DNA of 64,000 nucleotides from assembly GCF_000429465.1 (NCBI RefSeq), contig NZ_AUBX01000011.1:62001-126000 (forward strand), given 5' to 3'. How positions within the stretch are numbered: the first letter of the stretch is position 1; each line of letters opens with the position of its first letter. The notes below the pieces were generated by a model that worked only from the letters and a program-made list of their open reading frames with translations, was not told where the DNA came from and searched no databases. The stretch is from Algoriphagus vanfongensis DSM 17529 (GTDB lineage: Bacteria; Bacteroidota; Bacteroidia; Cytophagales; Cyclobacteriaceae). This document shows, piece after piece, positions 48,236 to 50,578 of the stretch. The position numbers and the translations under genes were made by a program.

Positions 48236-49492
48236 TTACTTATATGAATGATATCTGCCTGGTTCGAATCCTGCTATTTCCAAACTGGAGTCTTTTTGTT
48301 GGTGTAGCTCGGCGATGAGTTTGCCGGAAGCCGGTGCCAGACTTACTCCCATCATAGAATGCCCTGTATTTACCAGTACATTAGAGTAGGTAGGTGCGAA
48401 ACCCAGGTAAGGTAGTCCATCTGGTGAACAGGGACGGAGACCCTTCCAGATTTTGTTTTCCTCCGGAAATTTAGACTCAAATGAAGGGTAGTAGCGATTG
48501 ATTGATTCAAAAATACCCTTGACCCGATTGAGGTTGATTTTTTCGTTGGTTCCGGCTATTTCCATCGTTCCGCCAAATCGAATCTGGGATCCGTAAGGGC
48601 TTACAGCTACTTTCTGCTCTGTGAGTATCGCTGCTTGCTGGATTTCTGGTTTGTTTTCCTGAAGAAATGAATAGCCTTTTCCTCCCATCATAGGTAGGTT
48701 GAACTGGAGCATTTTTGCCAATTCACCAGACCAAGATCCGCCGCACAATATGATTTTCTCGGCAGGAATCTTCCCTTGATCGGTGAGTACCGCGCTGATA
48801 TGATTTCCGTTTTTTTCAAAACCAGTTACAGCTGTTTGTGGTAGGAATTTGACTCCTTTTTCGAGTAAGTATGTTTTAAGAAACGAGTACAGCTTTCCCG
48901 GATCCAAATGAGCATCTCCCGGAAATCGTACGGCACCTCTTGCTCGTACTTCCAAATTTGGCTCTATTGCTCGAATATCTTCAGGAGAAAGAATGTCAGC
49001 TTCTAAGCCATGTTTCCGTGCAATGTGCGCAAACTCCGTCTCTTCTTTTTCTATCGATTCTGTCTGATAGATCATCATCAAGCCTTTTTCGGCTAGGGCA
49101 AGTTGGGACTCAGGGTGCTCATCTCTTAGTTCCTGATAAAGCGACTTACTGAGTAAGCTTAGGTTTTTTAGGAAAGGAATACTTCGCTCCACATGAGCCG
49201 GAGTTGCTGCTCGATAAAATTGCAGGCACCAGCTGAGCAGCTTGGCGTCCAGTCTGGGCTGAATATAAAAGGGGCTTTTGGAAGAAAACATCCAGGAAAT
49301 TCCCTTGCTGATCATCCCTGGAGCGGCCAGCGGTATGATATGGCTCGGCACGATCATGCCCGCATTGCCTGTAGAACAATTTTGCTGCATGTCTCCTTTG
49401 TCGATGACCTGCACTTCTATTCCTTCTTTTTGAAGAAAATAAGCAGAGAAAAGTCCCACTATTCCGCCGCCGATGATGAGGGTTGGTTTCAT
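48236..49492 (-). CDS. FAD-dependent D-amino-acid (cis-4-hydroxy-D-proline) dehydrogenase/oxidase
   Basis: I start this 418-residue protein at the ATG at 49492 (MKPTLIIGGGIVGLFSAYFL), whose Rossmann GGGIVG motif binds FAD. The longer in-frame start at 49558 would run through the GTAC repeat. The DAO fold continues with GNAGMIVPSHIIPLAAPGMI, KIILCGGSWSGELAKML and WKGLRPCSPDGLPYLGF, then NTGHSMMGVSLAPASG. It resembles DadA-type dehydrogenases. In this operon it should oxidise cis-4-hydroxy-D-proline to 1-pyrroline-4-hydroxy-2-carboxylate. That substrate is inferred from the neighbours. Confidence 0.88.
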   Translation of the reverse strand: MKPTLIIGGGIVGLFSAYFLQKEGIEVQVIDKGDMQQNCSTGNAGMIVPSHIIPLAAPGMISKGISWMFSSKSPFYIQPRLDAKLLSWCLQFYRAATPAHVERSIPFLKNLSLLSKSLYQELRDEHPESQLALAEKGLMMIYQTESIEKEETEFAHIARKHGLEADILSPEDIRAIEPNLEVRARGAVRFPGDAHLDPGKLYSFLKTYLLEKGVKFLPQTAVTGFEKNGNHISAVLTDQGKIPAEKIILCGGSWSGELAKMLQFNLPMMGGKGYSFLQENKPEIQQAAILTEQKVAVSPYGSQIRFGGTMEIAGTNEKINLNRVKGIFESINRYYPSFESKFPEENKIWKGLRPCSPDGLPYLGFAPTYSNVLVNTGHSMMGVSLAPASGKLIAELHQQKDSSLEIAGFEPGRYHSYK

Positions 49493-49498
49493 ATTTTT

Positions 49499-49570
49499 GT
49501 ACCAAGTACAATGTACAACGTACCAAGGTGTGTCAAAATGACTTTGTACTTGGTACATCGTACTTTGTAC
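49499..49570. repeat. GTAC heptad inverted-repeat array
   Basis: GTAC occurs at 49499, 49506, 49513 and 49520, then at 49546, 49553, 49560 and 49567: two blocks of four in exact 7-bp register, 22 bases apart. The right block is an imperfect reverse complement of the left (about 24 of 29 positions), so the RNA or single strand can fold into a long hairpin. It lies between the hydroxyproline epimerase stop (49574) and the FAD oxidoreductase start (49492). I saw no other copy in the window. Confidence 0.85.
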
Positions 49571-49573
49571 AAT

Positions 49574-50578
49574 TTAGATGACTTGGAATCCATGGACATA
49601 GGGATCGTCATCGTCCAGGATGATGGTGTTATATCCGTAAACTTTGGCCCAGCCTTCTATGCTGGGAATGATGGCTGGCTGGCCGTTTATTTCAGTTTCT
49701 TCTTCGATTCGTCCGATGAATTTGGAGCCGATGAAGCTTTCATGCACAAAGTCCTCACCGGGTTTTAGAAGTCCCTTGGCATACCACTGTGCAAGTCGCG
49801 CCGAAGTACCAGTGCCACATGGAGATCGATCGATCGCTTTGTCTCCGTAGAAGACAGCATTTCTGGCTGTACTTGTGGGGTTTAATGTCTTGCCTGTCCA
49901 TAGGATATGGGAAAGCCCCCGAATCTGGGTATGCTCAGGATGGACAAAGTCATAGCGCTCATTCATCTTTTTACGCAGAGAGCGGGCCATGGAGATCAAT
50001 TGCTCCGCTTTGAAATGCTCCAAGCCAGGGAAATTTTGCTGAGGATCCACAATGCAGTAGAAGTTGCCCCCATAGGCCACATCGACCGTAAGTTTTCCGA
50101 GTTCTTCGGATTCAATTTCCAGAGCTTCCGCTGCCAAAAAGCTTTTGACATTGGTGAGCTTTACGGATTTCACTTTTTTACCTTCTTGCTTGTACTCGAC
50201 CAACACCAATCCTGCAGGGGTCTCTAGCCGAAGATGTCCGGGAGTTTTGGGAAAAATCAAACCTTCCTCGATCGCGATCGTCACCGTACCGATAGTCCCA
50301 TGACCACACATCGCCAGACATCCGCTGGTTTCGATGAAGAGCACTGCTACATCATTTTCAGAATTGTGGGGAGGGAAAAGCATGGAGCCGGACATCATAT
50401 CGTGACCTCTTGGCTCGAACATTAATCCCGTCCGGATCCAGTCCAGATTTTCCTGAAAATACTGCCGTTTTTCCAGCATGTTGGAGCCTTTGAGAAATGG
50501 AACTCCGCCAGAAACCACCCGCACGGGATTGCCACAGGTATGGGCATCGATGCAGGAGAAAGTGTGCCTTGTTGACAT
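49574..50578 (-). CDS. 4-hydroxyproline 2-epimerase (proline racemase family)
   Basis: This 334-residue protein begins with IDAHTCGNPVRVV, the family opening. The two active-site cysteines are C91 (SGCLAMCGHGTIGTV) and C254 (DRSPCGTGTSARLA). Both are Cys, which fits racemase/epimerase activity; the related 3-hydroxyproline dehydratases have Thr at one site. It converts trans-4-hydroxy-L-proline to cis-4-hydroxy-D-proline. Choice of hydroxyproline over proline rests on the neighbouring pathway genes. The gene is preceded by a hairpin (50638-50677) and followed by the GTAC array. Confidence 0.9.
   Translation of the reverse strand: MSTRHTFSCIDAHTCGNPVRVVSGGVPFLKGSNMLEKRQYFQENLDWIRTGLMFEPRGHDMMSGSMLFPPHNSENDVAVLFIETSGCLAMCGHGTIGTVTIAIEEGLIFPKTPGHLRLETPAGLVLVEYKQEGKKVKSVKLTNVKSFLAAEALEIESEELGKLTVDVAYGGNFYCIVDPQQNFPGLEHFKAEQLISMARSLRKKMNERYDFVHPEHTQIRGLSHILWTGKTLNPTSTARNAVFYGDKAIDRSPCGTGTSARLAQWYAKGLLKPGEDFVHESFIGSKFIGRIEEETEINGQPAIIPSIEGWAKVYGYNTIILDDDDPYVHGFQVI

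Follow-up and report, generated by a model that had tools for sequence, protein, structure and literature searches.

Inverted heptad arms in an operon spacer of Algoriphagus vanfongensis, shared with a 23S_rRNA_IVP locus of the same genome: a possible short, gene-less hairpin cassette

What are eight GTAC tetramers doing in strict 7-bp register, as two inverted arms, between an epimerase gene and an oxidase gene? The Pfam matches around this element (Pro_racemase, DAO, Aldedh and DHDPS) fit a hydroxyproline-type operon, which is the context proposed by a first-pass annotation of the window, i.e., the whole stretch of 64,000 nucleotides that was analyzed. Both flanking genes lie on the minus strand, with the epimerase stop at 49574-49576 and the oxidase ATG at 49490-49492; a longer oxidase ORF with its start at 49558 was a mechanical call, and the oxidase start was placed at 49492. 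The resulting spacer (49493-49573, 81 bp, minus strand), which was itself missed by ORF-based gene calls, is filled by the two arms. In transcript order, the features are:

49574..50578, minus strand: upstream gene, proline racemase / hydroxyproline epimerase family (PF05544, 435 bits)
49540..49573, minus strand: first arm, directly 3' of the epimerase stop; four GTACNNN units, with GTAC at 49567, 49560, 49553 and 49546
49528..49539, minus strand: loop between the arms, 12 nt, partly self-paired in the predicted fold
49493..49527, minus strand: second arm, inverted, stopping just short of the oxidase ATG; four units, with GTAC at 49520, 49513, 49506 and 49499
48239..49492, minus strand: downstream gene, FAD-dependent (DAO) oxidase (PF01266, 218 bits)

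All eight positions given by the first-pass annotation were confirmed, and their spacing is far above chance: within the window, the pattern GTACNNNGTAC was matched six times, always in this spacer, versus a mean of 0.08 and a maximum of 1 in 100 shuffled sequences, a check that the annotation itself had proposed. Its description of the right block as an imperfect reverse complement of the left also holds, in the form of a 17-nt core with 94% complementarity, as does the single hairpin that it envisaged in the message between the two genes, since the minus strand (the transcript strand) has a predicted fold of -31.1 kcal/mol (z -4.69) that none of 200 shuffles equalled. The window gave no family match above gathering score in Rfam, and the 81-bp spacer contains no S23p/IVP ORF. 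As in a MITE, inverted repeats form the ends of the element and no transposase gene is present.

The same spacer was then compared among relatives. The epimerase was found in 57 of 60 genomes of the genus, and the spacer was read in 56 of them, G001 being omitted because its epimerase match is cut by a contig end; in 49 of the 56, the oxidase lies within 450 nt of the epimerase. By a simple motif rule, 45 of these 49 spacers were assigned to one of four repeat classes, namely GTAC (13, including a 37-nt remnant in G018), AAGANYC-like (11), AGTATCA-like (6) and ACCTTYGAGGT-type palindromes (15), leaving four unassigned. GTAC as an essential core was rejected, as relatives have other units in its place here; with only 13 of 49 genomes carrying it, the tetramer does not define the element. 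The palindromes, present in G007, G011, G020 and G073 among others, extend up to 307 nt. In G058, where the two genes are not adjacent, heptads come after the epimerase and are themselves followed, as seen by eye, by an IS3-type orfA-like ORF. On a tree of 22 species, built quickly and without bootstrap, the class at this spacer changed at least seven times, and the option of an array bound by a site-specific regulator is weakened by this turnover.

With regard to the arms themselves, the 5' arms of 28 heptad spacers had a match score of 13.8 with their own 3' arm, 15.1 with those of the same class in other species and 8.9 with those of another class. Therefore, the arms share a class and switch class together; within one class, the two arms are not tuned to each other. 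Conservation was uneven: in the nearest clade the GTAC columns were the most conserved (4/96 changed, versus 15/54 for NNN and 22/66 for the loop), the second clade showed no such contrast (10/72, 13/78 and 10/63, respectively), and hardly any difference was seen in a third pair (0/28, 1/22 and 0/26).

The same GTAC arms recur in this genome at G000:C3:337894-338405, between the E2 gene and lpd, where they stand about 470 bp apart and enclose a gene:

G000:C3:338001-338354: IVP gene inside GTAC arms; 117 aa, four-helix bundle; PF05635 (23S_rRNA_IVP), 141 bits

The protein also matches bAvd, below the cut-off, and has solved relatives (2gsc, 2rld). IVP (S23p) is a common but functionally uncharacterized protein family, described mostly in connection with rRNA intervening sequences (IVSs), which exist without an ORF too. 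Because the window element has no ORF, its link to IVP rests on the shared arms. Inverted flanks were detected at all ten IVP genes of this genome, one of which falls below the family cut-off, with scores of 13-25 and a mean of 17.4; by comparison, 391 control genes from 464 kb of the same genome had a mean of 9.1 (sd 1.46), with five at 14 or more and two at 16 or more. Most of the ten loci have a unit of their own, and two have period 8 in place of 7.

In order to assess generality, IVP loci of other genomes were scored in the same manner. IVP genes are present in 45 of 61 genomes of the phylum. For 68 of these loci (the top 69 by score among those listed, one being dropped for short flanks), the median own-arm score was 17 versus a cross-locus mean of 9.4, and 55 reached 13 versus 8.1% of cross pairs; the best period was 7 in 47 loci and 8 in 14. 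A further sample from named genomes comprised the best 80 of at least 586 loci, reduced to 77 by three short flanks. Here, a score of 13 was reached by 51 of 61 loci from Bacteroidota and by 13 of 16 from other phyla (cross pairs: 14.5% and 4.2%), the latter assigned by record titles and including L405, which has no named phylum; period 7 was best in 51/61 and 13/16. As several IVP loci are close orthologues (L279, L301, L307 and others), p-values overstate independence. In one batch of 39 loci, the motif used yielded no ORF for eight, and the called start was too far downstream in at least five. Rfam gave no rRNA match for any of the 17 IVP loci that came from other phyla or had no named phylum.

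Judging from recurring junctions, the arm class can differ between families while the IVP gene stays. Two loci with IVP before nuoD had own scores of 22 and 24 and a score of 8 across; five before an acyl-CoA dehydrogenase gene had 19.4 versus 12.75, with one own score of 8; and 13 before fadA had 18.7 versus 13.5. No difference was observed at the lpd junction (21.0 versus 20.8), all members of which are GTAC. Genes of PDDEXK_3 (PF13366), a small family unrelated to IVP, are also bracketed, 26 of 31 loci reaching 13 versus 12.8% of cross pairs, which were the only comparison (no control genes) and involved flanks slightly longer than for IVP. Their best period was 9 in nine loci, 10 in six, 12 in four, 8 and 11 in three each, and 7 in one, and only 11 of 31 had a period score of at least 11; given this spread and the few high period scores, the longer unit is a trend rather than a rule. 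The arms at L270, L271 and L421-L449 tend towards units of 8-10 bases, such as arrays resembling CAGAGAGG.

We also monitored whether the arms behave as an RNA stem. As for the RNA element suggested in the first-pass annotation, the hairpin is present, but a search for compensatory changes and for a G-U bias found neither. When arms were swapped between species of one class at the epimerase-oxidase spacer, own arms paired no better (permutation p 0.54, 0.99 and 0.43 for classes A, B and C; one antisense value, in class C, was 0.03), and the same was observed for the IVP elements (p 0.45). G-U pairs did not exceed A-C pairs (9 versus 17 in class A), and among the epimerase-oxidase spacers compared, the sense strand was not more stable than the antisense strand. 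An RNA hairpin kept by base-pair selection was rejected, as strand stability, the G-U versus A-C counts and arm swapping gave it no support. These results disfavour a finely tuned stem; a coarse one is still compatible with them, since any two GTAC-class arms pair at about -26 kcal/mol. The arms are asymmetric: all 28 epimerase-oxidase heptad spacers had more purine in the 5' arm than in the 3' arm, and the purine fraction of the 5' arm was above 0.6 in 32 and below 0.4 in two of 55 phylum IVP loci, and above 0.6 in 32 and below 0.4 in one of 64 named-genome loci (flank background, 0.57-0.58). The element is therefore tied to the direction of transcription.

We assign a probability of about 0.5 to the reading that the window element is a short, ORF-less member of a class of transcribed, IVS-like hairpin cassettes, situated in an operon spacer and with its RNA probably cut, the cutting being the part that we infer. 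Such cassettes would extend from stop to start between co-directional genes, with two inverted arms of a degenerate unit, usually of 7 bases, and a long form carrying a small gene, here 23S_rRNA_IVP (S23p); by analogy, the class appears to be for operon spacers what IVSs are for rRNA. What is observed is the anatomy, the match of the two arms at class level, the turnover of the unit and the recurrence of these arms around an IVP gene elsewhere in this genome. In the polycistronic mRNA, the two arms would close an imperfect stem, and an RNase III-type enzyme would cut it, which would leave the epimerase and oxidase on separate messages with little penalty. Such a stem would survive mutation in many registers, owing to the repetition of its unit. 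Alternatively, the window cassette may merely be tolerated, as a cut between two cistrons would do little harm.

Heptad arrays also have a wider distribution. In the same genome, a three-unit GTAC pattern gave 18 matches versus 0 for the reversed pattern, and a two-unit pattern gave 55 versus 56 for its control, which leaves only the longer arrays as informative. Arrays of four units occurred in 27 of 58 genomes searched, this one included, with 24 of the 27 in the genus and a single match of the control pattern in all 58; the largest number, 98, was found in the small relative G002. The dispersed repeat family that had been suggested is upheld in kind by these counts, but the GTAC tetramer does not define it, being one of several interchangeable units. 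Arrays of this genome vary in NNN, and near-identical copies were noticed only locally, in G002. There, three nearly identical 140-bp GTAC-arm elements were seen by eye around an msrB-like gene (L105:3200-4200, G002:C32); nested arms were seen by eye at L106. At the starts of two contigs, a GTAC heptad arm also lies just 5' of the gene for 5S rRNA (L036:100-170, G000:C8; L037, G000:C9). A single inverted pattern of period 7, CAAG...CTTG, was found at 88 places over 60 genomes versus 144 for its reversed control, and the wider class is thus not findable by one pattern.

Period 7 is prominent in the intergenic DNA of this genome, with many units (nine intergenic of 11 arrays; 0-5 for other periods). 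This prominence favours polymerase slippage followed by drift as the origin of degenerate heptanucleotide arrays, with the inverted pair as a functionless by-product, and for heptanucleotide repeats of bacteria, slippage at 7 nt has already been suggested (Mrazek et al. 2007, cited after PMC4679880). We consider this explanation unlikely, as it accounts neither for a shared unit in opposite orientation on both sides of IVP genes nor for arms that switch unit together, as in the arm match scores above. Slippage may supply the raw material for the units, because period 7 is special outside inverted pairs as well, most period-7 arrays in the 464-kb sample not being inverted pairs, a point that counts against the cassette reading.

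A second rival starts from the E2-lpd junction, where 49 classified spacers of 50 genomes comprised 22 with IVP and GTAC arms, 16 of a TTACGA type and seven of a TATCAAG type, both without IVP, and four others (two bare, 38-39 nt; that of G031, filed here, is by eye a worn TTACGA type). The type differs between well-supported sister species (G026/G030, G019/G021 and G065/G009) and changed at least 11 times on the 22-species tree. Together with the up to 98 four-unit arrays in G002 and the three copies around one gene at L105 (by eye), this would suit a DNA foldback or MITE-like element, whose arms would be terminal inverted repeats for a putative recombinase and whose RNA hairpin would be incidental. 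We regard this, too, as improbable: arm sequence is not constant from locus to locus, IVP shows no recombinase signature, and an element acting only as DNA would not be expected to show strand asymmetry. Moreover, switching may stem from recombination in the flanking genes, for which the data are suggestive only: a divergence gradient was seen in the genes flanking the spacer in G065/G009, and nearest neighbours shared the type in 13/26 cases by the last 150 nt of E2 and 9/26 by the first 150 nt of lpd, with 8/26 and 4/26 further away. Finally, a regulatory element of the hydroxyproline operon (a protein-binding array or an RNA switch setting oxidase expression) would fit the repeat-armed spacer in 45 of 49 genus spacers and is nevertheless very improbable, given at least seven changes of class, the same arms at unrelated junctions and the window's lack of an Rfam match.

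If, in line with the cassette reading, IVP genes generally sit in heptad-arm cassettes between operon genes, then rRNA IVSs would be a special case of something broader, the role of IVSs and their protein could be tested in mRNA spacers of bacteria that are easy to grow, and some of the degenerate heptad repeats between genes of Bacteroidota would be accounted for. More speculatively, hairpin cassettes might follow common rules across phyla, with unit length going with cargo (7 or occasionally 8 with IVP, and a tendency to 8-10 with PDDEXK_3), unit letters specific to the locus and both arms rewritten together; if true, a cellular activity would write or maintain locus-specific arrays of set period on both arms. 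A literature search covering titles and the beginnings of abstracts, with subscription journals and preprints outside its scope, returned no report of heptad arms around IVP genes outside rRNA.

Among known systems, REP/BIME and MITE-type palindromes provide many intergenic hairpins in operon spacers, and the ACCTTYGAGGT palindromes, found in 15 of the 49 genomes at this very spacer, have such a look. In contrast, copies of the present element share no fixed sequence, their arms being degenerate heptad arrays. The TAACTGA repeats of Beggiatoaceae, Cyanobacteria and five Bacteroidetes (PMC4679880) are likewise intergenic tandem 7-mers, often near start codons, with indels in steps of seven; however, they are direct repeats of one fixed heptamer, whereas the arms here are paired and inverted, the unit is GTACNNN in the window and one of many across loci, and there is a link to IVP genes.

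With regard to rRNA IVSs, the known system that comes closest, that of Coxiella burnetii has (PMC4990558) a 28-bp terminal inverted-repeat stem and tandem heptamers (three GACAGAT and a variant) ahead of the S23p/IVP start, their number varying between strains, and RNase III cuts at the first repeat. Both systems have a hairpin closed by inverted repeats, a long form with an S23p/IVP ORF, heptamers before the ORF and a patchy presence. The differences are that the window element lies between protein genes of an operon and not inside an rRNA gene, that it is ORF-less, that units differ between loci and that RNase III would here be a presumed agent. An S23p/IVP ORF is absent from the window element and present in its sister element at G000:C3:338001-338354, and a stem from closing inverted repeats is present in the window element itself. 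Since the anatomy of the Coxiella IVS is that of the cassettes described here, the window element is probably a short transcribed cassette that is cut, or at least tolerated, between its two genes.
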